Virus record (IMG/VR): IMGVR_UViG_3300046011_007256
Location: 1 to 22,746 of that record
Direction: 5' to 3' (one strand)
DNA from: a virus
Length of the DNA: 22,746 nucleotides
Shown here piece by piece: positions 10,141 to 20,817 of this stretch (within the stretch, counting starts at the first letter, position 1; the number at the start of each line of letters is the position of its first letter). Below the pieces are notes generated by a model. That model worked only from the letters and a program-made list of their open reading frames with translations. It did not search any database and was not told where the DNA came from. The position numbers were made by a program, and so were the translations under genes.

Positions 10141-10144
10141 ATTG

Positions 10145-10825
10145 ATGATAGGTATTTATAAAATTACAAACCCAAAAGGTAAAATATATATAGGTCAATC
10201 TACTAATATAGAAGATCGTTGGGAAAAAGGACACAAATATAATTCGGGAAGTGGTAAAAAATTTAAAAATTCTTTAAATAAGTACGGTTGGAAAAATCAT
10301 AAAAAAGAAATCCTTGAAGAATGTATAATAGAACATTTATCTGAAAGAGAAACATATTGGATTGAATATTACGATAGTTATAAAAAAGGACTTAATTCAA
10401 CATCAAAAGGAGGAATACAAGGTTATAAAGATGAACAATGGAGGAAAAACCACTCAAAAGGATTAAAAGGTAGAAAAGGAGTTTGGGAAGGTAAAACTCG
10501 TCCTGAACATAGTGCTTTTTTAAAAGAAAAGGGTTGTGGTTTATCTTATGAAAGAACTCAAGAACATAAAGACAATCTTTCTATAATGATGAAAGAAGTA
10601 TGGAAAAATAAAAAAGAAGAAATAAGTAAAAAAATTACACAAAATAAAATAGGAAAAGGACTTAAACCTATTATTTGTGATACTTTATTCGGAATGGAAT
10701 TTAAATCATTATCAGAAGCAAGTGAAGTTTTAAATCTAAATAAAGGTAACATATGTGAAGTTTTAAAAGGTAATAAAATTCATATTAAAGGATTTGTTTT
10801 TCGATATAAAGACTTTGTATCTTAA
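10145..10825 (+). CDS. GIY-YIG homing endonuclease (Seg/I-TevI type, NUMOD domains)
   Basis: A 226-residue protein from the ATG at 10145. The TTG three bases earlier is a less likely start. The nuclease domain opens with G3-I4-Y5 and I14-Y15-I16-G17. The expected catalytic Arg is at about residue 25 and the metal-binding Glu in S-E-R-E-T-Y-W-I (about residues 66-73). A Gly/Lys-rich region with G-R-K-G-x-W-E-G-K-T-R-P-E-H resembles NUMOD3. The C-terminal S-L-S-E-A-S-E-V-L-N-L-N-K-G-N-I segment, ending in G-F-V-F-R-Y-K, resembles NUMOD1/IENR1 DNA-binding helices. Such free-standing enzymes cut a related genome lacking the insert and spread by repair. It sits between the tail block and the small-protein block, with its own promoter-like sequence. 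The class is confident; the target site is unknown. Confidence 0.88.
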   Translation: MIGIYKITNPKGKIYIGQSTNIEDRWEKGHKYNSGSGKKFKNSLNKYGWKNHKKEILEECIIEHLSERETYWIEYYDSYKKGLNSTSKGGIQGYKDEQWRKNHSKGLKGRKGVWEGKTRPEHSAFLKEKGCGLSYERTQEHKDNLSIMMKEVWKNKKEEISKKITQNKIGKGLKPIICDTLFGMEFKSLSEASEVLNLNKGNICEVLKGNKIHIKGFVFRYKDFVS

Positions 10826-10836
10826 TTTTTTTTTTA

Positions 10837-10848
10837 TATATTTATAAT
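10837..10848 (+). promoter_or_regulatory. Candidate phage promoter, TATTTATA motif
   Basis: After the homing endonuclease and a T-run, TATTTATA lies at 10839-10846 within TATATATTTATAATAA, 14 bases before the ATG of the first FDLKK-leader protein. The leader is A-rich with no Shine-Dalgarno. Assigned by recurrence of the motif. Confidence 0.4.
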
Positions 10849-10860
10849 AAATAAAAAGAT

Positions 10861-11100
10861 ATGGATAATTTTGATTTAAAGAAATATTTAGTAGAAAATA
10901 GATTAAAGGAAACTACTTTAACCGAAGCTAAATATAATGAATTTATGTTAGAATGGATGGTTCCTGGGAAAGAATCTAATACACTAATGTCTAAAAATTT
11001 AAAAGAATTATTTAATTTTATTGATGAAAAAAATATAAAAGACTATACTGTTAAAGGATGGGATGGGAGAAAATGGGATACTTTAATTAGTAGTTTATAA
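10861..11100 (+). CDS. Small protein with FDLKK leader, putative internal head protein
   Basis: A 79-residue protein. The N-terminal 22 residues form an amphipathic leader (N-F-D-L-K-K-Y-L-V-E-N) followed by L20-T21-E22 before A23. This matches the (L/I)xE site cut by T4-type prohead proteases. The leader is nearly the same as those of the next gene and of the gene at 19474, while the bodies are unrelated. The remaining roughly 56 residues are helical and charged, with a W-D-G-R-K-W-D-T-L motif near the end. By analogy with T4 internal proteins, whose N-terminal targeting peptides are removed in the capsid, it may be packaged in the head. The body has no recognised family. Confidence 0.55.
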   Translation: MDNFDLKKYLVENRLKETTLTEAKYNEFMLEWMVPGKESNTLMSKNLKELFNFIDEKNIKDYTVKGWDGRKWDTLISSL

Positions 11101-11112
11101 CAAAACAAAAAT

Positions 11113-11316
11113 ATGAGCAATTTTGATTTAAAAAAATACTTAATAGAAAACAAGATTACTGCTAATTCTATTATCAAAGAGGATGTAAATAGTCTTTCTA
11201 AAGAACAAATGGAATTAATGAAAGGAATATATAATCTAGTTAAAAATTCATCAGTTACATATGAAGATGTAATAACTGTATTAGAAAATATGATTGATGT
11301 CTATAATGACAACTAA
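11113..11316 (+). CDS. Small protein with FDLKK leader, putative internal head protein
   Basis: A 67-residue protein beginning M-S-N-F-D-L-K-K-Y-L-I-E-N, closely matching the leader of the preceding gene at protein and DNA level. A possible processing site I21-K22-E23 precedes D24. The mature part would be only about 44 residues, helical and acidic (L-S-K-E-Q-M-E-L-M-K-G, then Y-E-D-V-I-T-V-L-E-N-M). It starts 12 bases after the previous stop with an A-rich leader, and a TTTATAA element overlaps that stop. Tandem arrangement with the previous gene suggests duplication of the leader with divergence of the cargo. No function is recognised. Confidence 0.5.
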   Translation: MSNFDLKKYLIENKITANSIIKEDVNSLSKEQMELMKGIYNLVKNSSVTYEDVITVLENMIDVYNDN

Positions 11317-11318
11317 AA

Positions 11319-11329
11319 ACATTTATAAA
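11319..11329 (+). promoter_or_regulatory. Candidate phage promoter, CATTTATA variant
   Basis: CATTTATA at 11320-11327, a one-base variant of the recurring TATTTATA element, lies 16 bases upstream of the ATG at 11344 and is followed by an A-rich, G-free leader. Function is inferred from recurrence. Confidence 0.35.
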
Positions 11330-11343
11330 AAATAAACAACAAA

Positions 11344-11709
11344 ATGAAAGATTTTATAAGAATGCAAAAACTAGCAGGTTTAATTACAGAAACCCAAGCT
11401 AATAAAATGTTAGAAAAAAGAGGTATGATCACACATAAAACCCCACAAGATTATGTATTATTAATTTGGGATGTAGAAAATGATGATATTATGAATCCTT
11501 CACTAAAAATGGTTTTTACATCAAATGATGAATCTAATTTAGACATACCTAAAGGACAATTAGCTGATTTAATACAAAATGAATTAGGAGAGGAAATTTC
11601 AACAGAGGATTTTGATATTGAGGGACCTATGAGTTATGATGAATTTAAAAATAACTACAAAATGACTATACCTGCTAAATTAATATATGGTATAGATGAT
11701 ACTATTTAA
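11344..11709 (+). CDS. Small acidic protein with MQKLAG-type leader
   Basis: A 121-residue acidic protein. The first 16 residues (F-I-R-M-Q-K-L-A-G-L-I-T-E) form a short amphipathic helix of a kind I recall at the N-termini of many small hypothetical proteins in Bacteroidota and aquatic phages. I14-T15-E16 is a possible prohead-protease-like site, although the following Thr is not the preferred small residue. The body (about residues 30-121) has alternating strands and helices (D-Y-V-L-L-I-W-D-V-E, then D-L-I-Q-N-E-L-G-E-E-I) and could be one compact alpha/beta domain. It is the last gene before a hairpin, so it may end the small-protein transcription unit. Function is unknown. Confidence 0.5.
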   Translation: MKDFIRMQKLAGLITETQANKMLEKRGMITHKTPQDYVLLIWDVENDDIMNPSLKMVFTSNDESNLDIPKGQLADLIQNELGEEISTEDFDIEGPMSYDEFKNNYKMTIPAKLIYGIDDTI

Positions 11710-11730
11710 TAAAGTAAAAAATATTTAGTT

Positions 11731-11755
11731 AAGCTTGGGAAACCAAGCTTTCTTT
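11731..11755 (+). terminator. Stem-loop with GAAA tetraloop, probable terminator or 5' UTR element of primase
   Basis: A perfect 8-bp stem (AAGCTTGG at 11731-11738, CCAAGCTT at 11743-11750) closes a GAAA (GNRA) tetraloop at 11739-11742 and is followed by TCTTT. This is the only convincing hairpin in the intergenic DNA of the window. It could be an intrinsic terminator, although the T-tract is short and broken. Alternatively it could be an RNA-stability or translation-control element in the primase leader, 13 bases before the ATG. Confidence 0.55.
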
Positions 11756-11763
11756 ATTACATT

Positions 11764-12702
11764 ATGGTTATGCTCAATCAACCACTGATTGCCTTAGTCA
11801 ATTCTGTATTAGGTAATGGTAAACCAACAGCAAGAGGTAACTACGCTTATAGTTGTCCATTCTGTAACCACCATAAACCTAAGTTAGAAATCAATTTTAC
11901 TGAAAACCAAAAAGGAGAGAATCCTTGGCATTGTTGGGCTTGTGATAAAAAGGGTAAAAAAATAATTCAAGTATTTAAACAAAAAACAGCCTCACCTGAA
12001 AAAATGGCTGAATTAAAAACCATTATTAAATATTTTAATCCTTACGATAAACAAGAAAATGTAATTGAAAAGGTTTCTTTACCTAAAGAATTTAAATCAT
12101 TAACCAATATTCAGAAATTAGACATTATAGGAAGACATGCTTTATCTTATGCCAAATCTAGAAACATTAGTGAAGAAGATATTTTAAAATACAATATTGG
12201 ATATTGTGAATCAGGACCTTACAAAAACACAATTATAATTCCTTCTTACAATGAAAATGGAGAATTAAATTATTTTACAGGTCGTTCATTTGAAAAAGAA
12301 ACTCAAAGAAAATATAAAAATCCAACAGTTTCTCGTAACATCATACCATTTGAAATATTTATAAATTGGGATTTGCCTATCATATTGTGTGAAGGACCAT
12401 TTGATGCCATTGCTATTAAGAGAAATGTTATTCCATTATTAGGTAAAAACATACAATCAAATTTGATGAAAAAGATTGTAATGTCTAGTGTAGAAAAAAT
12501 ATATATAGCTTTAGATAAAGATGCTCAAAAACAAGCTCTATCATTTTGTGAGCAATTGATGAATGAAGGTAAAGAAATTTATTTAGTAAATATGAAAGAT
12601 AAAGACCCAAGTGAAATGGGATTTGAACATTTTACTAAATTAATACAAGAAACAACTCCCCTAACATTTTCAGAATTGTTAGGAAAAAAGTTATCAATAT
12701 GA
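11764..12702 (+). CDS. DNA primase, T4 gp61-like (zinc finger plus Toprim)
   Basis: A 312-residue protein that should synthesise RNA primers for lagging-strand replication together with a helicase. A CHC2-like zinc-binding domain is visible: C31-P-F-C34 (with H36 and H37 nearby) and H56-C57-W-A-C60. Residues about 200-290 are a Toprim domain, with the catalytic Glu in L-C-E210-G-P-F-D-A and the D-x-D pair in A-L-D251-K-D253, followed by K-D-P-S-E. The length is close to that of T4 gp61. The start may be the ATG at 11764 or the one at 11770; neither has a Shine-Dalgarno. The stop overlaps the next gene as ATGA, coupling it to the nuclease. No helicase is in this window; in T4-like phages it is encoded separately. 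Confidence 0.85.
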   Translation: MVMLNQPLIALVNSVLGNGKPTARGNYAYSCPFCNHHKPKLEINFTENQKGENPWHCWACDKKGKKIIQVFKQKTASPEKMAELKTIIKYFNPYDKQENVIEKVSLPKEFKSLTNIQKLDIIGRHALSYAKSRNISEEDILKYNIGYCESGPYKNTIIIPSYNENGELNYFTGRSFEKETQRKYKNPTVSRNIIPFEIFINWDLPIILCEGPFDAIAIKRNVIPLLGKNIQSNLMKKIVMSSVEKIYIALDKDAQKQALSFCEQLMNEGKEIYLVNMKDKDPSEMGFEHFTKLIQETTPLTFSELLGKKLSI

Positions 12703-13481
12703 ATAAAAAAAGAAACATCAAACATGTAAACAACAGAATATTAGAAATTTCTGAAGATTATAAACAAATTACATTACCTGATTCTCGTTATTATAGAAGA
12801 AATGGTGAATATTATCCTTCTATAACTCACGTTTTAGGTTCTTACCCTAAAGGTAAACATTTTGAAGAATGGCTTAAAAATATGGGTCGTTCAGCTGACT
12901 ATATTGTTCGTAAAGCAGCCGAAGATGGAACCAAAGTTCATGAAATGATTGAAGAATATTTAGAAGGTAAAGAAATGAGTTTTCTAAATGAATGGGGTAA
13001 TCCTCAATACAACCCTGACATCTGGCAAATGTTTTTACGTTTTGTTGATTTCTGGGAAACATATAAACCTGAATTAATAGATCAAGAAATCCATTTATTT
13101 TCAGACACACTTAAAGTAGCAGGTACAACAGATTTGGTTTGTAAAATTAATAACGAACTTTGGATTATTGATCATAAAACATCAAACCATATTCAAACAA
13201 CTTATGAATTACAAGCAGCAGTTTATGCTCATTGTTATGAAGAGTGTTTTGGTGTTAAACCTGATCGTACTGGTATTTTATGGTTAAAATCAACAAAACG
13301 TAAAGGTTCAAAAGATAAAATGCAAGGTAAAGGATGGGAAATGATTTTGCCATCTCGTACACAAGAGGAAAACATTGAAATCTTTAAAACAGTAAAACGA
13401 TTATTTGATTTAGAAAACCCTAATGAGGCTCCTGTATTTACAGAATTTAAAACTACAGTAAAAAGAAATTTGGAAATATAA
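12699..13481 (+). CDS. PD-(D/E)XK nuclease, RecB/Cas4-like
   Basis: A 260-residue protein with the RecB-type nuclease signature in order. A possible upstream acidic residue lies in H-E-M-I-E-E (about residues 85-90). D145 is in A-G-T-T-D-L-V, D158-x-K160 is in W-I-I-D-H-K-T-S, and Q172-x-x-x-Y176 is in L-Q-A-A-V-Y. The N-terminal part (Y-Y-P-S-I-T-H-V-L, then W-L-K) resembles phage and Cas4-like exonucleases of this superfamily. It is probably an exonuclease acting in recombination, end processing or host DNA breakdown. Coupling by ATGA to the primase places it in replication or recombination. No recombinase partner is visible nearby. The family is confident, the specific role is not. Confidence 0.8.
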   Translation: MNKKRNIKHVNNRILEISEDYKQITLPDSRYYRRNGEYYPSITHVLGSYPKGKHFEEWLKNMGRSADYIVRKAAEDGTKVHEMIEEYLEGKEMSFLNEWGNPQYNPDIWQMFLRFVDFWETYKPELIDQEIHLFSDTLKVAGTTDLVCKINNELWIIDHKTSNHIQTTYELQAAVYAHCYEECFGVKPDRTGILWLKSTKRKGSKDKMQGKGWEMILPSRTQEENIEIFKTVKRLFDLENPNEAPVFTEFKTTVKRNLEI

Positions 13482-13492
13482 ACTCTTTTTCA

Positions 13493-13502
13493 TATATTTA
13501 TG
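13493..13502 (+). promoter_or_regulatory. Candidate phage promoter, TATTTATG variant
   Basis: TATTTATG at 13495-13502 sits in the short gap after the nuclease gene, 13 bases before the ATG of the P-loop kinase. It is a one-base variant of the recurring element at the same spacing as elsewhere. A T-run (CTTTTT) precedes it, without a stem. Confidence 0.35.
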
Positions 13503-13515
13503 ACAAATTGTTTCC

Positions 13516-14277
13516 ATGATTGGACTAGTCTCTCTATTAAAAGAAATACAAGGTAAACCCAAAGCTATTTTTATGGCAGGTCCAGCAGGATCAGGTAAAT
13601 CAACTGTTTCAAAACAATTAATCCCATCCAATTTTATAACAATAAATGTAGATGATACCTATGAGGAATTACTTAAATCCTCAGGCATTGGTATGAAGTT
13701 AGCTCAAATGTCACCTGATAAATTAAAAAAAGCAGGTGAATTAATGGGTCAAGCTAGAAAAACTACAGACGTTAAATTCCAAAACGCTACTAAAGATGCT
13801 AAAAATTTATTAATTGATAGCGTAGGAGGTTCACCAAAAACTTTATTAAAGAAAAAACAAGAATTAGAAGATTTAGGTTATGATACTTTGATGCTAATGA
13901 CTTATGTGTCGCCTATTACCTCACTAGAACGTAATATGAAGCGAGACAGATCATTGTTGCCGAGTATCGTGATTCGTTCTTGGCGTGATGTAAATAAAAG
14001 TATAGACACGTATAAACAAGTTTTTGGTAATGATTTTATATTATTAAATAATGACCTTAAAGATGCTGATAAAAGCTTTGATGAAGAATACATTTATAAA
14101 ACATACATTGAACCTTTAGGACAAATAGGTAAAGAAAAATCACCTGAGGAAAAAGCCAAATCAAAAGTAGAATCAGAAAAGATTTATTCAGATATAAAAC
14201 AATCTCTTAATAACCAACCAGAGTTTGATACATTAGAACAAGCACAACAAAAAATCACCAAATTTATAAACAAATGA
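13516..14277 (+). CDS. P-loop kinase (zeta-toxin / polynucleotide-kinase-like)
   Basis: A 253-residue protein with a clear Walker A at residues 22-30 (G-P-A-G-S-G-K-S-T), preceded by the strand A-I-F-M-A. A D-D-T-Y segment follows the second strand (N-V-D-D-T-Y), as in zeta-toxin and polynucleotide-kinase-like enzymes. An Arg-rich lid-like region around residues 133-155 (E-R-N-M-K-R-D-R, then R-S-W-R-D-V) fits ATP and phosphate handling. The C-terminal 50 residues are charged helix. The first 12 residues (L-V-S-L-L-K-E-I-Q) look like the short helical leaders of neighbouring genes. The substrate cannot be told from sequence: sugar nucleotide, nucleic acid end or protein are all possible. The stop overlaps the next start as ATGA. 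Confidence 0.7.
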   Translation: MIGLVSLLKEIQGKPKAIFMAGPAGSGKSTVSKQLIPSNFITINVDDTYEELLKSSGIGMKLAQMSPDKLKKAGELMGQARKTTDVKFQNATKDAKNLLIDSVGGSPKTLLKKKQELEDLGYDTLMLMTYVSPITSLERNMKRDRSLLPSIVIRSWRDVNKSIDTYKQVFGNDFILLNNDLKDADKSFDEEYIYKTYIEPLGQIGKEKSPEEKAKSKVESEKIYSDIKQSLNNQPEFDTLEQAQQKITKFINK

Positions 14278-14618
14278 AATTATTAGACTTACTAAAAGAA
14301 AGCGAATTAGAAAAAGATATTAAAGAAGGACCAGTAGATGAAATCGGAAAATTCTTTGTAGTTAAAAAACCTGGTAAAGGTGTAACCAAAGAAAGTATGG
14401 TATATGAAGCTACCGTATTCGATGAAATCAAAATGGAAGAAGTTAAAGGTGTTTACAAAAACAAATCTGAAGCTAACCGTCATGCAAATGATGCTCTTAA
14501 AGAATATGATATGATGATGAAAGAAGTTGAAGAAGCTATGAATGAATTTAGAGAAGCTAAAAAAGGCATCGACGAAAAGAAAAAATTAGCTAAAGAAAGA
14601 ATCCAAAAACTTAGATGA
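14274..14618 (+). CDS. Small helical charged protein with leader-like N-terminus
   Basis: A 114-residue, Lys/Glu-rich protein. Residues 1-18 form an amphipathic stretch (L-L-D-L-L-K-E-S-E-L) ending in I16-K17-E18 before G19, which fits the (L/I)xE/G processing pattern seen in neighbours. A short beta segment (F-F-V-V-K-K-P, then V-Y-E-A-T-V-F) is followed by a long C-terminal helix (about residues 65-114) that may form a coiled coil. Both ends overlap neighbouring genes as ATGA, so expression is linked to the kinase and the nucleotidyltransferase fusion. A TTTATAA element lies 4 bases before the start, inside the upstream gene. No family is recognised; an internal head or scaffold-like protein is one possibility. 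Confidence 0.55.
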   Translation: MKLLDLLKESELEKDIKEGPVDEIGKFFVVKKPGKGVTKESMVYEATVFDEIKMEEVKGVYKNKSEANRHANDALKEYDMMMKEVEEAMNEFREAKKGIDEKKKLAKERIQKLR

Positions 14619-15814
14619 TAGATTCTATTATAGAAATATTATTTGAAGAAGACTACTCAAAGAAAGTAATCATTTATGTGGGAGGATTTAAACCACCTAC
14701 TAAAGGACATTTTGAGGTAGTTAAAAATGCTTTAGAAGACTTTTCTGACGCAGATGAACTTATCATATATGTTGGAGGAGGTGTAAGGGATAATATTACT
14801 CAAGAAGAATCAATTAAAATATGGGACATTTATAAAAAATATCTTTCCCCAAAAGTTAAAATAGAACCATCTTTTTCACCAATCAAATCAGTTTTTGATT
14901 ACGCTAAACAAAACCCTGAAGAAGAAATTTATTGGGTATTAGGTGCTAGAGAAGGAAATGAAGGTGATTTAGCCGATATTGAAAACCGAACTAAATCTTT
15001 AGATAAATACCCTAATATTGTACTCAAAATAATTACCACTCCAGGTGGTGTTAGTGGAACTAAAGCAAGACAAGCTTTAAAATTAAAAGATAAAGAACAA
15101 TTTTTTGAACTAATCCCAGACATTGAAGAAAAAGAACAAATATGGGATATGGTTTCTCCTATTGTTAAAGAAGAAGAAATAATAGAAGTAGTAACAAATA
15201 CAGACATAATTTGTGATAATTGTGGTTGGGAATGGAAAATAGCAGATGGTGGAGATGATTTATATGTTTGCCACAAATGTGGACATGATAATAATCCTGA
15301 TTTAGAAGAAGCATCTGACCCACAAGCAGGTACAGCTTTGCCTTACGGTTCAGGTTTTGCTCCAGTAAAAGAAAAATCAGATCCTTTTGGATTAAACGAA
15401 TACGCAAAAACATTTGTAAAAGAAGTATTTGAAGAAACTTCAGATTTAAAAGAAAGTATTTTATCTTTATCAAAATATATGTTAAAGAATGGTCTAAACA
15501 TTAAGCCATTACCTAAAGTAAAATTTATAAACAATGATGAAGAAAATGCTTCTAAAATACTAGGTAAAACAGCTCATTACAACCCAGCCGATAAATCTAT
15601 TACGTTATATACTTTTGGTAGACATTCAAAAGATATTTTACGTTCATTTTCTCATGAAATGATTCATCACATGCAAAATTTAGAAGGTAGATTAAACAAT
15701 ATTACTACTACTAACACAAATGAGGATGGAGATTTACCTGAAATTGAAAAAGAAGCATACGAAAAAGGAAACATGATGTTACGTAACTGGGAGGATGGTA
15801 TAAAAAATGTATAG
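14615..15814 (+). CDS. Nucleotidyltransferase / zinc ribbon / zinc metallopeptidase fusion
   Basis: A 399-residue three-part protein. Residues 17-155 are a cytidylyltransferase-like nucleotidyltransferase: G23-G-F-K-P-P-T29-K-G-H32 is the (H/T)xGH motif, and V-S-G-T-K-A-R (about 146-152) matches the ISSTxxR motif, as in NMN adenylyltransferase or FAD synthetase relatives. Residues about 197-226 form a four-Cys zinc ribbon (C-D-N-C-G-W and C-H-K-C-G-H). Residues about 290-399 resemble a gluzincin: H347-E-M-I-H351 plus a probable third ligand in E-K-E380-A-Y-E. A linker with P-Y-G-S-G-F-A-P joins the parts. The N-terminal leader (I-I-E-I-L-F-E-E) has an LxE. The peptidase could process capsid cargo or act on host proteins; the transferase could serve NAD or cofactor metabolism. 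Substrates are unknown. Confidence 0.72.
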   Translation: MIDSIIEILFEEDYSKKVIIYVGGFKPPTKGHFEVVKNALEDFSDADELIIYVGGGVRDNITQEESIKIWDIYKKYLSPKVKIEPSFSPIKSVFDYAKQNPEEEIYWVLGAREGNEGDLADIENRTKSLDKYPNIVLKIITTPGGVSGTKARQALKLKDKEQFFELIPDIEEKEQIWDMVSPIVKEEEIIEVVTNTDIICDNCGWEWKIADGGDDLYVCHKCGHDNNPDLEEASDPQAGTALPYGSGFAPVKEKSDPFGLNEYAKTFVKEVFEETSDLKESILSLSKYMLKNGLNIKPLPKVKFINNDEENASKILGKTAHYNPADKSITLYTFGRHSKDILRSFSHEMIHHMQNLEGRLNNITTTNTNEDGDLPEIEKEAYEKGNMMLRNWEDGIKNV

Positions 15815-16352
15815 ACTTAAGTTAACAAACATATACAAACAAATTAAAGAGGAAGAAACAGCTACTCCTGGACCACAATACAAAATTTATTGTGATATGG
15901 ATGGAGTTTTAGCTGATTTTGATAAACGATTTAAAGATTTAAATCCTGAAAAATTATCAGCTGCTCAATACCAAACCAAATATGGTATAGAAAAGTTTTG
16001 GAATTTTATTGATGAAGAAAATAAAGTAAAATTTTGGGTTGGCATTCCTTGGATGCCAGACGGAAAACAACTTTGGGATTATATCAAAGACAAACAACCA
16101 ACTTTATTATCAGCCCCATCTAGAAAACCAGCTTCTCGTTTAGGAAAAAGATTATGGGTTAAAAACAACATTCCTGGAACTCCTTTAATTTTAGCAGCAG
16201 CTGATAAAAAACAGAATTATTCTGGAAGGAATAAAATACTTATCGACGACCGTCTTGACAACATTGAACAATGGGTATCACAAGGTGGGATAGGAATACT
16301 ACATAAAAATACACAAGATACAATACAACAACTAAAAAAATATGAAATATAA
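15807..16352 (+). CDS. HAD-superfamily hydrolase, 5'(3')-deoxyribonucleotidase-like
   Basis: A 181-residue protein. Motif I is Y-C-D30-M-D32-G-V-L-A-D-F-D, with the nucleophile Asp and the general acid Asp, in the form typical of NT5C-like deoxyribonucleotidases. L-L-S-A-P-S-R fits motif II (Ser), a Lys in A-A-D-K-K-Q fits motif III, and K-I-L-I-D-D-R-L-D-N-I-E-Q-W fits motif IV (acidic pair). The likely reaction is dephosphorylation of deoxynucleoside monophosphates, useful for pool adjustment or host nucleotide salvage. The first 24 residues precede the fold and resemble the leaders of its neighbours (L-T-N-I-Y-K-Q-I-K-E-E). It overlaps the upstream gene by 8 bases and the downstream gene by 11. 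Confidence 0.75.
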   Translation: MYRLKLTNIYKQIKEEETATPGPQYKIYCDMDGVLADFDKRFKDLNPEKLSAAQYQTKYGIEKFWNFIDEENKVKFWVGIPWMPDGKQLWDYIKDKQPTLLSAPSRKPASRLGKRLWVKNNIPGTPLILAAADKKQNYSGRNKILIDDRLDNIEQWVSQGGIGILHKNTQDTIQQLKKYEI

Positions 16353-17130
16353 ATTAAGAGAAAACGAAGAAGATTCTCAATCCAGATTGGCTTTGGATTA
16401 TGATATAATTCTAACTCCAAAATCAGACATTAAAAAAGCAGTAGAGGCTTTAGAAAATCTAGATAACTATGGTTCTTATATTTCAAATATGAGAAATAAG
16501 TCCAATATTGAAAAAGCAATAGAAGATTATTTTGGTCCATCAGTTCCTGTTAAGAAAAAAGCTTTAGAAAAAAAACTAGGCAAAACATTCCCTATTAAAA
16601 CAAAACAAGCAATTGATGACTTAGTTAAATCACTTACCAGTAAACCTAATTTGTTAAAATATACTGTTAAAGATGATAGTATTGTTTTTCCTAAAGGAAC
16701 TAATCCTGCAAAAGATGTAACTAAAAAAATAATCAAAACTGTAATGGATAATGCTGGTATTGATTTTTCAGTAAAAGAAAAAGAATCAGTAAGTGAAGAT
16801 GCTATTACAGATAAAATAAAATCATCTTTTATGAACCAGGTTACTAAAGGTAAAAAAGGACAACCTTATTCTTCAGGTGAAACTTTACCACCTAACACTA
16901 AAATGAAAAAATCTGAGTTAAAAGAAATGATTAAAGAAGAACTTAAAAATCTTTTAAAAGAAAATTTTAAATCATTTGATAACTTAGAATTTGCCATTAA
17001 ACAATATGAAAAAGGTGATAGTTATTACGATATGACTAAGTTAAAAAACATATTTAATCAACTAGAAGATAGTGACCAACAAAAAGCAAGAACAAAATAT
17101 AGCGAATATTTTGGTAAAATAAAAAAATAA
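16342..17130 (+). CDS. Lys/Glu-rich multi-module protein with internal leader-like helix
   Basis: A 262-residue charged, mainly helical protein of no recognised family. The N-terminus (K-Y-K-L-R-E-N) holds an LxE/N site after only seven residues. Residues about 20-150 form one helical unit with a basic middle (K-K-K-A-L-E-K-K-L-G-K-T). Around residues 188-208 there is a second leader-like amphipathic helix (M-K-K-S-E-L-K-E-M-I-K-E-E-L) ending in L-K-E/N, followed by a short C-terminal unit with Y-E-K-G-D-S-Y-Y-D-M. Similar helices occur inside the genes at 19474 and at the start of the gene at 22464. The order suggests two cargo modules joined in one chain. Basic patches would allow DNA contact. 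A head-internal protein is the working guess. Confidence 0.5.
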   Translation: MKYKLRENEEDSQSRLALDYDIILTPKSDIKKAVEALENLDNYGSYISNMRNKSNIEKAIEDYFGPSVPVKKKALEKKLGKTFPIKTKQAIDDLVKSLTSKPNLLKYTVKDDSIVFPKGTNPAKDVTKKIIKTVMDNAGIDFSVKEKESVSEDAITDKIKSSFMNQVTKGKKGQPYSSGETLPPNTKMKKSELKEMIKEELKNLLKENFKSFDNLEFAIKQYEKGDSYYDMTKLKNIFNQLEDSDQQKARTKYSEYFGKIKK

Positions 17131-17700
17131 ATGAAAAACGATTCGGTTTTAAAAAAAGAATTTAAACATAAAGACGTAGAACGTCTTCGTAACTTGGTTC
17201 AAGGCAAGTACGGAGAAAAAACTACTATGGGAACTGGTTATCAGAAAGCAAAAGAATTTCATAATGAAGGTGATGTTTGGGAAGAAGATGGTAGAACTTG
17301 GACTATTAAAAATGGTTTAAAACAAAATATTACTAAATTAGATAAAGCAAAAGAAGGTATTGTATTACCTTTGTTTTGTCCTACTTGTTCTACTACTATG
17401 AAACCACATTTGGATAAAAAATGGTTTGTAATGTACGGACATTGTTTCAATTGTCAAGTAGACTTTGAAGCAAATCTTCGTAAAGAAGGAAAATTAGATG
17501 AATTTGAAAAACAAGTAATCAACCAACACTTAGAAGGAACAATTCATGACTTTGAAGCTTGGTTTGATGAGTTATTAAATGAAAAAGACCAATTCATTAC
17601 CGAAGATGGTGATGTTGAAAATTGGAAAGGTTCTAGTGAATCAAAGTTATTAAAGTACAAAGAGGAGGCTTTAGAATACTTAAATAAACAAAAGAAATAA
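17131..17700 (+). CDS. Zinc-ribbon protein, conserved phage hypothetical
   Basis: A 189-residue soluble protein starting directly after the previous stop. A four-Cys zinc ribbon is formed by C83-P-T-C86 and C105-F-N-C108, separated by M-K-P-H and a W-F-V-M-Y-G-H strand. The N-terminal 80 residues include G-D-V-W-E-E-D-G-R-T-W-T-I-K-N-G. The C-terminal part is acidic with F-E-A-W-F-D-E-L-L-N-E and D-G-D-V-E-N-W-K-G-S. Zinc ribbons of this type act in nucleic-acid or RNA polymerase interaction, or in structural roles. Unlike many neighbours it lacks a leader with an (L/I)xE site. It may be a transcription-related protein, but this is inference. Confidence 0.55.
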   Translation: MKNDSVLKKEFKHKDVERLRNLVQGKYGEKTTMGTGYQKAKEFHNEGDVWEEDGRTWTIKNGLKQNITKLDKAKEGIVLPLFCPTCSTTMKPHLDKKWFVMYGHCFNCQVDFEANLRKEGKLDEFEKQVINQHLEGTIHDFEAWFDELLNEKDQFITEDGDVENWKGSSESKLLKYKEEALEYLNKQKK

Positions 17701-17702
17701 TA

Positions 17703-18323
17703 ATGGAAATCACTATGATCACAACTATTGTAGTTGCTATAATCACTGCGGTTATAGGCCCTGTCGTTATAGAATGGGTTAAAACTAAATTAAGAAAAAA
17801 AGAAAAAGAAGACAATTCACCTGTTAAAGAAGCTATTGACTTAAATGCTTTAATTGATGGTCAATTAGACCAATTAATGGATGAACTTGGTTGTGATAGA
17901 ATTTGGATTGGACAATTTCATAATGGTGGTCATTTTTATCCTACAGGAAAATCCATCCAGAAATTTTCAATTTTTTATGAAAAATTAACTCCTGTTATAT
18001 CTCCAATCCAACATATCTTCCAACAAATACCAGTATCGATATTTCCAAAAACTTTATCTAAACTTTATAAAGATGGAGAATTATCAATTACTAATTATTT
18101 AACAGATGAAACATATGATTTAAATATGTTTGCTAAAGAATACGGAACTAAATCATTTTACATGATTGCCATAGATGATCTAGATGATCATTTTATTGGA
18201 GTAATGGGAATTGCTTTCAATGATAAAGAACATAAATTATCCAAAGAAGAATGGATATTTATACGACAGAAAGTAGGGGCGATTGGTTCCCTTTTAACAG
18301 ACTATTTATACAAGAAAAAATGA
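17703..18323 (+). CDS. Membrane-anchored GAF-like protein
   Basis: A 206-residue protein with one N-terminal membrane segment (about residues 5-25: hydrophobic I/V/A run, with P20), followed by a basic cluster (K-T-K-L-R-K-K-E-K) that would remain cytoplasmic. The soluble part resembles a GAF-type domain: D-R-I-W-I-G-Q-F-H-N-G-G-H-F-Y, then K-F-S-I-F-Y-E, then F-Y-M-I-A-I-D-D, then F-I-G-V-M-G-I-A-F, with C-terminal helices. GAF domains bind small ligands or mediate dimerisation. No output domain is attached. It may sense a metabolite at the host inner membrane or serve in superinfection control or lysis timing. The stop overlaps the next start as ATGA. Confidence 0.6.
   Translation: MEITMITTIVVAIITAVIGPVVIEWVKTKLRKKEKEDNSPVKEAIDLNALIDGQLDQLMDELGCDRIWIGQFHNGGHFYPTGKSIQKFSIFYEKLTPVISPIQHIFQQIPVSIFPKTLSKLYKDGELSITNYLTDETYDLNMFAKEYGTKSFYMIAIDDLDDHFIGVMGIAFNDKEHKLSKEEWIFIRQKVGAIGSLLTDYLYKKK
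18303..18310 (+). promoter_or_regulatory. Candidate phage promoter, TATTTATA, inside the end of the GAF-like gene
   Basis: An exact TATTTATA lies 9 bases before the ATG at 18320, within the last codons of the upstream gene (codons for D-Y-L-Y). Spacing agrees with the other copies. Another exact copy at 18256-18263 is not next to a start and is probably chance. Confidence 0.3.
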
Positions 18324-19453
18324 AAGACATACAAAAAATAAAAGAATTTTTCTCTAAATCTTTAAAAGAAGGTAACGAAGAATACTACAAACCAAAAATC
18401 CGTAAAGATAAAAACAATCCTAACTTTTTATATATTGACATAGCTTATCCTGCAGGTTCAGGTTTTACAACCGCTTTAGGTTCTAAAACTATGTCTGGTA
18501 GAGATAGAGAAGAAGGTGCTACTAAAGCATTAGTAATGGGTAATGAGATCGTTAAGAAATTAGAAGCAAAATATAATATTGAGGATATTGAGGTAAAGGA
18601 TTTAAAAAATGGTAAAGTACAAGTATTTGCTGTATCAGATGATTTTACTAAAATGGCTTCTCCTTCATTAGATGAAGCTAAAACAGCTATTGACATGGCT
18701 AAAAAACAACTAGATCAATTAGGTGCTAAATATGAAATGTCAGGTAATAAATTTAAACCATTTAAGATAATTTATAAACCAATTGGCAAATCAGATGGTT
18801 GGTATGATAAATTTGATGAGATTGTTGATTTATTTAACTTAGGAAGTGCTGTTAAATCATCAATGAGTGAAGCTAAAGAGCAATCATTATATAAAGATTG
18901 GGACCAGTTTGAAAAACCAAGTAAAATTCTAGTTTATTTAAATAATGGTAAAACATTAGAAATTACACCTTTAAAATTAAAAGGAGGTAAAAGAGTTTAT
19001 GACGCTATCTTACAAGCATTTATAGATGATAGACTTGATATTACAAATAAAGTAATACAAGGAATGACTAATAATCTATCAGAAACCAAATCAGAAGATA
19101 AAGTAGATACCATCACAATGGATGTTCCTTTATTCCTTCGTATGTTAGAATACTCAAGAGAAGATGCCTCTCAAGATATGGATTTACATGATGTTACCGA
19201 AAAAGCAATTTCATTAGGTAAAGAAAGAGGTATTTTATCTATGGATGATTATAATGAAATTGTAGGTGCTGCTGAAGAAATAGATGAAGCTACTGACTAT
19301 ATGAAACGTAGAAAAGCTATGGATGATTACACAGCTAGCAAAAAAGACAAACCTAAAAAATCATATAACCCAAACCCTTCAGGCAAAACTGACTATATGA
19401 AACGTAGACAAAAAGATTTAGCTGAGGCCATTTTATCTAAATTAAAAAAATAA
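18320..19453 (+). CDS. Multi-module helical protein with leader, putative head-internal protein
   Basis: A 377-residue protein. An ATG at 18251 would add 23 residues but lies deep in the upstream gene. The ATG at 18320 forms the usual ATGA coupling and gives a leader like those of neighbours: I-K-E-F-F-S-K-S-L15-K16-E17 before G18, an LxE/G site. Residues about 20-170 are an alpha/beta domain (Y-I-D-I-A-Y-P-A-G-S-G-F). Around residue 190 is M-S-E before A, and around 254 L-S-E before T. Residues about 270-330 hold M-D-V-P-L-F-L-R-M-L-E-Y-S-R-E-D-A, then D-M-D-L-H-D-V, then L-G-K-E-R-G-I-L-S-M-D-D-Y. I recall this module in several aquatic phages. The C-terminus carries two Y-M-K-R-R repeats and ends in L-A-E before A. 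Function is unknown. Confidence 0.55.
   Translation: MKDIQKIKEFFSKSLKEGNEEYYKPKIRKDKNNPNFLYIDIAYPAGSGFTTALGSKTMSGRDREEGATKALVMGNEIVKKLEAKYNIEDIEVKDLKNGKVQVFAVSDDFTKMASPSLDEAKTAIDMAKKQLDQLGAKYEMSGNKFKPFKIIYKPIGKSDGWYDKFDEIVDLFNLGSAVKSSMSEAKEQSLYKDWDQFEKPSKILVYLNNGKTLEITPLKLKGGKRVYDAILQAFIDDRLDITNKVIQGMTNNLSETKSEDKVDTITMDVPLFLRMLEYSREDASQDMDLHDVTEKAISLGKERGILSMDDYNEIVGAAEEIDEATDYMKRRKAMDDYTASKKDKPKKSYNPNPSGKTDYMKRRQKDLAEAILSKLKK
19292..19408 (+). repeat. In-frame direct repeat encoding T-D-Y-M-K-R-R
   Basis: Two identical 21-base copies at 19292-19312 and 19388-19408, 96 bases apart start to start and in the same frame, encode T-D-Y-M-K-R-R near the C-terminus of the 377-residue protein. The basic repeat, with a Lys-rich spacer, may bind nucleic acid. 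Confidence 0.7.
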
Positions 19454-19463
19454 CATATTTATA
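19454..19463 (+). promoter_or_regulatory. Candidate phage promoter, TATTTATA motif
   Basis: An exact TATTTATA at 19456-19463 lies in the 20-base gap between genes, 10 bases before the ATG at 19474, followed by an A/T-rich leader with no Shine-Dalgarno. It matches the copies at 6953 and 10839. Confidence 0.4.
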
Positions 19464-19473
19464 ATCACATATT

Positions 19474-20817
19474 ATGAAAAAATTCGATTTAAAAAAAGCA
19501 ATATTAGAAAATAAAGCTACCTTTTTTTCTTCTTTGAATGAAGGTCAATTTTCTTGGATGACACAAGATACAGGAAAACAAATTGGTTCTGAAAGAGAAA
19601 ATACTATTGATGTCTACATGTTTGATAATAAAGGTAATAAATGGTATGAACCAAATTATGAAGGATATGGTGAATTTGGTGGTAAAGATTATTACGAATT
19701 ATTAGACCAAATGAATGGTGGTAGTGGTGATAGAAGTAGAGGTATTAATTTAGCTTTTGATAAAATAAAAACAGATAGTAAAGTATTATATCCTGCTTTA
19801 GTTACTAGATCTAATTTTGATTGGAAATCTCATGATTTCACTGAAGAAGCAGAAAACGATCCTAATCAATCTTGGTATGCTGGTGAAGAGTATGGTTATC
19901 GTGATTATCATGATGAAGAATTAGAAGAAGGTTATATGGGTCAATTTTATGCTCCTGAATACCTAGAACAAAAATACGGTAAGGTGATAGCTAAACAAAT
20001 AGAGGATGAGATTTATGAAATGGACCCAAATGCTTGGGATAGATTTACAGGAATGGAATCAGCTGAAGAAGTTGAAAATTATATCTCTGACATCAAAGAT
20101 ATGATTAATTTAAATGAAGGTGATATTAAAGAAAAAAATAATACCAACATTCATAAAGTAGCTGAAAAATTTGCTAATTATATGTCTAAAAAAGAAGGTA
20201 AAAAATTCACAGTAAATACAGATTCAGTAGATGAATATTCTTTTGATTTAGATTTAGATGGTAAAGAATATGAAGGTGGAAGCTATCTTTTAAAAGGTGA
20301 TAATATTGTCAATGTAGCAATGCCTGGTAATCCATCATATGCTAAAATAAATCAATTTTTAGAAGAAGGTGAAGCTGCTTACGAATATGAAAAAGGTAAA
20401 GAAGCCGGCGAAAAAATAGAAAAGAAAAAAATGAAAATGTCTGAATTAAGAGCCAAAATCAAAGAAATGATTATAGCTGAAATGGATTTAGATGTAACTG
20501 ATGAAACATCAGGATATGATTTCTTAGCTGAATTAGAAGAAATATTAGAAGCAGAAGAAAAAGAAGAAAAAGACAAAAAAGAAGATGCTGACATAGAAGC
20601 AGCTGATGATGTAGCAGTAGGTGATGAAGAAATAACTACCGACACTGAAGTAGCTGAAGTAGATCCTAATGTAAAAGCAGTACAAGATGCTTTAACACAA
20701 GCTCAAACAGCTGCACAACAATTAGGTGATAAAAAATTAATCAACCAAATTGGTAATACAATTACATTCTTTACTCGTGCTCACGTTGTTGAAAAACCAG
20801 GTGGAGCAATAAATTAA
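19474..20817 (+). CDS. Large acidic protein with FDLKK leader, putative processed head-internal protein
   Basis: A 447-residue, very acidic protein. Residues 1-23 are the FDLKK leader (F-D-L-K-K-A-I-L-E-N), with L21-N22-E23 before G24. Residues about 25-95 form a module with W-M-T-Q-D-T-G-K-Q-I-G-S-E and Y-G-E-F-G-G-K-D-Y-Y-E-L-L, which looks like a conserved hypothetical domain. A second L-N-E/G site lies near residue 215, followed by an alpha/beta unit. A leader-like helix (M-K-M-S-E-L-R-A-K-I-K-E-M) comes near residue 325, then a long Glu/Asp/Lys-rich stretch. A C-terminal helical pair (V-Q-D-A-L-T-Q-A-Q-T-A-A-Q-Q-L) follows. The series of leader-like sites suggests a proprotein cut into several pieces. 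The exact function is unknown. Confidence 0.55.
   Translation: MKKFDLKKAILENKATFFSSLNEGQFSWMTQDTGKQIGSERENTIDVYMFDNKGNKWYEPNYEGYGEFGGKDYYELLDQMNGGSGDRSRGINLAFDKIKTDSKVLYPALVTRSNFDWKSHDFTEEAENDPNQSWYAGEEYGYRDYHDEELEEGYMGQFYAPEYLEQKYGKVIAKQIEDEIYEMDPNAWDRFTGMESAEEVENYISDIKDMINLNEGDIKEKNNTNIHKVAEKFANYMSKKEGKKFTVNTDSVDEYSFDLDLDGKEYEGGSYLLKGDNIVNVAMPGNPSYAKINQFLEEGEAAYEYEKGKEAGEKIEKKKMKMSELRAKIKEMIIAEMDLDVTDETSGYDFLAELEEILEAEEKEEKDKKEDADIEAADDVAVGDEEITTDTEVAEVDPNVKAVQDALTQAQTAAQQLGDKKLINQIGNTITFFTRAHVVEKPGGAIN

Follow-up and report, generated by a model that had tools for sequence, protein, structure and literature searches.

The viral record IMGVR_UViG_3300046011_007256 is a genome fragment of 22,746 nt, and we refer to this whole 22.7-kb stretch as the window. 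Three open reading frames on its forward strand, at 10861 (MDNFDLKKYLVENRLKETTLTEAKY..., 79 aa), 11113 (MSNFDLKKYLIENKITANSIIKEDVN..., 67 aa), and 19474 (MKKFDLKKAILENKATFFSSLNEGQF..., 447 aa), share an N-terminal peptide, the FDLKK leader, that ends in an (L/I)xE motif. In gene 10861-11100, the leader covers residues 1-22 (10861-10926), with LTE at residues 20-22 and a predicted cut before A23, and the body, or cargo, has 57 residues (10927-11097). In gene 11113-11316, it covers residues 1-23 (11113-11181), with IKE at residues 21-23, a predicted cut before D24, and a cargo of 44 residues (11182-11313). The FDLKK-type leader of gene 19474-20817 likewise spans residues 1-23 (19474-19542), with LNE at residues 21-23 and a predicted cut before G24. 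Neither short body has homology to the other two FDLKK bodies, and pairwise comparison of all three bodies past the cleavage site gives no alignment (no hit, E=0.10, and E=28). A preliminary description of this DNA had reported LTE/A, IKE/D, and LNE/G at residues 20-24 of a leader shared by three otherwise unrelated proteins, and both statements hold. A degenerate FDLKK codon pattern occurs three times on the forward strand of the window and never on the reverse strand or in a backwards-read control. When 73 cargo groups are made into a leader profile, leaving out the two groups that contain near-identical copies from relatives, the profile detects all three leaders (E 9.8e-11 for 10861, 1.4e-13 for 11113, and 0.0063 for 19474). 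The last is the most divergent of the three, and its orthologues keep both leader and site in the viral contigs G017 (LTE/G) and G007 (LNE/G).

The closest isolate is Flavobacterium phage vB_FspM_immuto (NC_055915; hereafter immuto), matched through a tail-region protein of 1641 aa (34.7% identical across 51% of the query) and through the window nucleotidyltransferase (35.1% identical across 97%). Flavobacterium is a Bacteroidota genus, which agrees with the earlier suggestion of a phage probably infecting Bacteroidota. The closest genome met is contig G017 (165.7 kb), which matches 17 of the 18 called window proteins from 9.6 kb onward at 42-100% identity. Ten of these 17 are at least 73% identical, and one leader protein, the 79-aa product of gene 10861, is identical; gene 11113 is absent from the equivalent place, where a primase gene follows the 10861 homologue. 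In both immuto and G017, the counterpart of the window's right half sits between the tail genes and the genes for terminase, portal, protease, scaffold, and capsid, and because of this placement we regard the right half as a cargo island immediately upstream of the head genes. The head genes of both genomes run TerL, portal, S77, scaffold, gp23, the gp20-, gp21-, gp22-, gp23-like order of a T4-like head assembly system. The scaffold is assigned by position and helical composition, its hhalign match to T4 gp22 being weak (E 0.004, probability 8%). In the uncultured genomes, genes were called with a simple script, and some starts are wrong.

The leader is common among viral contigs. A scan with a DNA pattern that fixes residues 1-13 only and requires ATG finds at least 149 matches on at least 119 viral-contig stretches, and an exact codon-permuted control pattern has 0 matches in the viral-contig scan, which rules out a chance motif. 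After removal of duplicates and of the seven incomplete matches among the 149, clustering by cargo similarity places at least 111 distinct complete proteins in at least 75 unrelated cargo groups, so the prediction that other genes carry the same leader is borne out. Pfam recognizes almost no functions among the 75 listed representatives, with one matching sigma-70 models and one DUF7934. The former is a sigma-70 family factor behind an FDLKK leader (L037:8509-9108; Pfam 1.9e-14; PHROG sigma factor 2.7e-16), a candidate packaged sigma factor, and its gene adjoins another that starts MIKLLDILRE. Searched by tblastn against 50,697 phage records (limit E 10), the leader matches only four immuto records. 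A relaxed-pattern scan of bacterial genomes gave three matches in Clostridia that are unrelated (FDLKKxLxEN followed by a YPGRGI body).

The cleavage-like site is conserved in the part of the leader that the scan leaves free. Specifically, (L/I)xE falls within residues 14-30 in 62 of the 75 cargo groups listed, compared with 18.0 in shuffles (standard deviation 3.5, maximum 32) and with 8/75, 5/75, 6/73, and 7/64 in downstream windows of the same proteins, while the looser [LIMVF]xE is found in 71 of the 75. A site from residue 17 onward is found in 68 of the listed proteins, and in 61 of these 68 the E is residue 23 or 24. Directly after the predicted cut, the commonest residues are A, E, D, N, and G. 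The unfixed part follows the loose consensus KxTxNS(K/R)xLxE, and (L/I)xE is kept in 16 of the 19 listed leaders whose TxNS spacer is lost or changed. All 135 distinct places of the core in the fetched loci have a Met at most 8 residues upstream (a start codon was not required), a result that is partly built in, since nearly all loci were fetched with an ATG-demanding pattern. A profile search of eight genomes and the window that does not demand ATG also lists N-terminal matches, except for one inside a fused frame in contig G003 (36342-37931). There, the separate immuto leader genes 117631 and 118632 form one open frame with an internal FDLKK leader, possibly a polyprotein.

A second class of leader, MKDFIRMQKLAGLITE, forms residues 1-16 of the forward-strand gene 11344-11709 (11344-11391). 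A scan for RMQxLAGxITE finds at least 142 matches, among which 132 lie at most 25 residues from the first Met, eight are internal, and two are C-terminal. These represent at least 117 distinct complete N-terminal proteins in at least 65 cargo groups, and 64 of the 65 listed representatives (one 31-residue protein was left out) yield only three DUF models in Pfam, with one member each. In eight of eight genomes, the gene between those for the S77 protease and gp23, where T4 has its scaffold gp22, encodes a protein with a similar peptide at its C-terminus. When a profile made from these eight scaffold C-termini only is compared with 1941 called proteins, its best non-scaffold matches are the N-termini of small proteins, including immuto 111675 (4.9e-8), immuto 25061 (5.3e-6), and the window gene 11344 (7.4e-5). 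The preliminary description was right that all three of its leaders are real and form one family, but it missed gene 11344 along with several genes up to ~18.3 kb that have short (L/I)xE-ending N-termini, and there are at least two tag families, the second copying the scaffold C-terminus.

At least 25 proteins end in the scaffold-type peptide, and 16 of them are scaffolds by their N-terminus; a script flagged 13 of these, each with [LIVM]xE upstream, and the other three were assigned by eye (L162 without the E). The nine others (L060, L071, L111, L164, and L227 among them) end in an RMQKLAG-like peptide, often after (L/I)xE, and several also carry an N-terminal leader and thus have tags at both ends. 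The structure model of the scaffold is mostly helical and of low confidence (mean pLDDT 60.7, pTM 0.25), and the modelled C-terminal peptide is a short helix past a low-confidence linker, which is weakly consistent with a docking peptide.

The two leaders are interchangeable. At least eight cargo groups are found under both, with 30 protein pairs at E of at most 1e-5 and best pairs per shared group between 1e-9 and 3e-91. Before this comparison, bodies were cut at the leader end (at residue 25 for FDLKK). On the FDLKK side, seven of the eight best pairs are homologous up to a point six residues or fewer from the leader end; on the other side, six of the eight are homologous up to 16 residues or fewer from ITE, and in the remaining pairs homology starts further in. 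For example, the small immuto protein encoded between protease and scaffold has an FDIHKW leader, while the same body stands behind an FDLKK leader in L042 and L084 and forms the C-terminal end of a larger protein in a third genome. The earlier notion of the leader as an exchangeable module is therefore supported in both directions, by unrelated cargo under one leader and by homologous cargo under different leaders.

Each of the 14 fetched leader records that measure 120 kb or more encodes a gp21-type protease (Peptidase_S77), as do 22 of the 34 leader records tested across all sizes. The gp21-like gene anticipated earlier is thus found, though in relatives only, as it lies outside the window. 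The S77 proteins have (L/I)xE immediately before the protease domain in eight of eight genomes, and the major capsid proteins have LLE/G in the same proportion; a capsid protein search in 20 mostly short records (1/20) is uninformative. N-terminal (L/I)xE (residues 5-30) is at expectation over most of the immuto genome and raised in the cargo island and head block. In six genomes that were not used to define these regions, it occurs in 42 of 52 head block proteins (14.6 expected) and in 83 of 149 cargo island proteins (47.4 expected), although the island of G003 alone is not significant (z 1.65). The island size was set at 22 kb on immuto and G017, and proteins shorter than 60 residues and opposite-strand genes inside the island or head block were dropped.

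Several other forward-strand genes in the window begin with leader-like peptides of 9-17 residues that are hydrophobic-rich and end in LKE, LKE, LFE, IKE, and LKE, respectively. MIGLVSLLKE (13516-13545) provides 10 residues before a zeta-toxin/kinase-like P-loop protein (Pfam Zeta_toxin 3.5e-10), and its orthologues in G017, G007, G011, and G008 keep LxE at residues 8-10; T4 IPIII is also processed at the E of residue 10, according to the section of PMC9026906 that covers it. MKLLDLLKE (14274-14300) starts gene 14274-14618, and MIDSIIEILFE (14615-14647) precedes a protein with weak Pfam and PHROG matches (14615-15814) that combines a nucleotidyltransferase-like domain, a zinc ribbon, and a C-terminal HEMIH metallopeptidase-like motif. 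In G017 a different N-terminus stands before the same domain, and longer relatives of this protein are found in G017 (1055 aa) and immuto (907 aa). The peptide MYRLKLTNIYKQIKE (15807-15851) precedes a 5' deoxyribonucleotidase-like protein (phrog_2643, 8.4e-26 from residue 24), and MKDIQKIKEFFSKSLKE (18320-18370) begins at an inner start of the frame 18251-19453 that is supported by G017. Any single one of these peptides could be due to chance, and the regional enrichment of (L/I)xE in six genomes is the test. By eye, a further motif, KKS(E/Q)LxxxI(K/R)EEL, appears at the N-terminus or internally in window genes 16342 (around residue 190) and 22464 and in immuto 102294, 102880, and 113188, and may be a third tag class. 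To the left of the leader genes, 10142-10825 resembles a GIY-YIG homing endonuclease by eye, and 9667-10107 matches a PHROG named NAD synthetase as well as homing endonuclease families, which makes the former name doubtful.

A promoter-like element, TATTTATAATAAA, lies on the forward strand upstream of gene 10861 (10839-10851), with similar elements at 13495, 18303, and 19456. TATTTAT is found in the 70 bases upstream of 48 of the 74 listed leader genes (one of the 75 has too little upstream sequence and was left out), compared with 12-16 for the best 7-mers in the eight listed of 30 shuffles and with 369 of 1911 for all called genes. In the window it precedes 10861, 13516, 18320, and 19474 and is also present inside genes; in immuto it precedes the terminase, portal, sheath, tube, and tape-measure genes and also nine of 85 replication and metabolism genes. 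An oriented element, TATTTATAA(T/C)AAA, stands before leader and structural genes in the window, immuto, and seven other genomes, and counts of ATATTTATAA against its reverse complement are 25:0, 17:0, 14:0, 28:5, 6:1, 4:0, and 8:0, and 0:8 in the reversed genome G008. The core of this element is the reverse complement of the T4 late promoter TATAAATA; TATAAATA itself is ruled out as the upstream element, as it precedes only one of the 74 listed leader genes. We infer that the element may act as a late promoter.

Across these data, the leader is modular, its site is conserved, a protease gene is present in the long related records, leaders are exchanged, and leader genes cluster near head genes. 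The FDLKK peptide is thus very probably a removable capsid-targeting propeptide of the T4 kind that delivers cargo into the head, and the propeptide family proposed in the preliminary description finds support in sequence through its modular leaders, the conserved (L/I)xE, and the S77 gene of relatives. We infer a course of docking, packaging, cleavage, and injection. Late in infection, the peptide would dock its freshly synthesized protein to the core inside the assembling head. Cleavage by the S77 prohead protease after (L/I)xE, at about residue 23, would follow, and the cargo, freed of its tag, would stay in the head and be ejected with the DNA into the next host. More tentatively, and with a chance that we put a little short of even, the tags may amount to a portable capsid-import code. 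Unrelated late proteins, such as enzymes or a sigma factor, would enter the head through a copy of the scaffold's C-terminal docking helix at either end, or through the FDLKK helix, which would be independent of it and dock at another place on the core. With each tag bounded by an (L/I)xE cut, any gene gaining a tag would become injectable cargo.

Several observations weigh against a capsid-targeting role. The window has no head genes, and the protease, outside the 22.7 kb, is seen in relatives only. Twelve of the 34 leader records have no S77 match, all of them shorter than 103 kb, and S77 is unspecific: among the seven of 18 control stretches tested, two have it, and since both are among the three controls longer than 100 kb, S77 is weak as a marker of leader phages. 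Four of the 75 FDLKK leaders listed are without [LIMVF]xE in residues 14-30, and elsewhere in the six genomes (L/I)xE also shows mild enrichment (387/1138 vs 301.0 expected). In some cases a leader gene is a long way from the head block, the FDLKK profile search shows no match to the scaffold or other core proteins outside protein N-termini, and the literature searched holds no virion proteomics or new N-termini for immuto.

Other functions for the leader have to be weighed against these same data. It could be a helix by which proteins dock to a different late factor of the virion or of infection (tail, baseplate, chaperonin, or membrane), with (L/I)xE left uncut, and it would fit that leader genes also occur away from the head block, that immuto encodes its own GroEL/GroES, and that the immuto baseplate-region protein 81525 has a leader-like N-terminus. 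We consider this improbable, because the site, which lies beyond the residues fixed by the scan, is conserved in position and survives loss or change of the spacer, because homology of shared cargo comes so close to the FDLKK leader end (within six residues in 7/8 best pairs), and because the interchangeable second leader resembles the scaffold peptide. Still harder to credit is a mobile DNA cassette, i.e. a start region for recombination or translation without peptide function. Spread over unrelated genes and the promoter-like element shared by 48 of 74 listed leader genes would agree with such a cassette, but the DNA diverges while the protein does not. Between cargo groups, leader codons 2-13 have a synonymous divergence (pS) of 0.73, and in 40 pairs within one stretch pS is 0.49 and the nonsynonymous value (pN) 0.015, a low pN that the scan partly forces in these codons; constraint is weaker over codons 14-20, which the scan leaves free (pN/pS 0.74 across all pairs and 0.54 among canonical ones). 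Because synonymous divergence is high, leader copies appear mostly old as DNA and not recent duplications, and the cleavage site, moreover, is kept at residue 23-24.

A further possibility accepts targeting and cutting as above and differs in the fate of the cargo: the tags would serve head building, and leader proteins would be accessory core or scaffold proteins that are degraded. This is unlikely in our view, even if it has to be taken seriously given the small size of the bodies (median 94 residues) and their mostly acidic character (a net negative charge in 59 of the 75 listed groups), and given that the scaffold carries the same kind of tag and that the immuto genes for protease and scaffold flank that of one leader protein family. 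A sigma-70 factor among the cargo (L037), kinase-like and nucleotidase-like proteins behind leader-like N-termini in the window, and cargo bodies that vary between close relatives all speak for delivery instead.

If the capsid-targeting reading is true, the tag sequence by itself would predict which unknown genes of a large, mostly uncultured phage group have products that travel in the virion and are injected at time zero, and host-takeover and counter-defence proteins would be expected among this cargo. Docking information may then reside in the scaffold C-terminus, cargo recruitment by T4-like head cores would become testable in a cultured phage-host pair, and the leaders would be candidates for short tags with which to load proteins into phage heads.

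The concept of capsid-targeting tags in T4-like phages is already published (PMC9026906). In the parts of that source concerned with them, T4 IPI, IPII, IPIII, and Alt are described with short N-terminal propeptides that have L/I-X-E before the cut and are removed by gp21. As in T4, the FDLKK peptide is a short N-terminal peptide on unrelated mature parts, with L/I-X-E and a gp21-family protease. As far as sequence can tell, it has the features that define a T4 capsid targeting sequence, except for likeness to T4's own peptides, as the IP N-termini differ. By contrast, the T4 IP tags are few and 10-19 residues long, whereas FDLKK tags have ~23 residues of unrelated sequence and occur on at least 75 cargo groups, and here a second interchangeable tag resembles the scaffold C-terminus; T4 gp22 does not end in a peptide of this kind. 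In phage P1, the N-terminal 30 residues of DarB suffice to bring a reporter into the head; the Dar N-termini share no sequence by BLAST, according to the relevant portion of PMC9024508, while the FDLKK tag is shared and conserved. In SPN3US and relatives, head and ejected proteins have N-terminal propeptides that are cut by a gp245-type protease after a short E-ending motif (PMC5694885, PMC10052503). Two of these propeptides resemble FDLKK leaders in length (20 and 24 residues); the others are 111-254 residues long with an A-X-E type site, and the sections of the two sources that treat them describe no short portable tag. Closest to the window phage is immuto, with four FDLKK-type leaders, S77, gp23, and a scaffold with the C-terminal peptide. 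Its record annotates the leader proteins as hypothetical and one as cobalamin adenosyltransferase, with no targeting role noted, and the literature searched by title holds no report of these leader sequences or of such tags in Bacteroidota phages. What is new here is the scale of the family, the interchange of two tags, and the likeness of one of them to the scaffold C-terminus.

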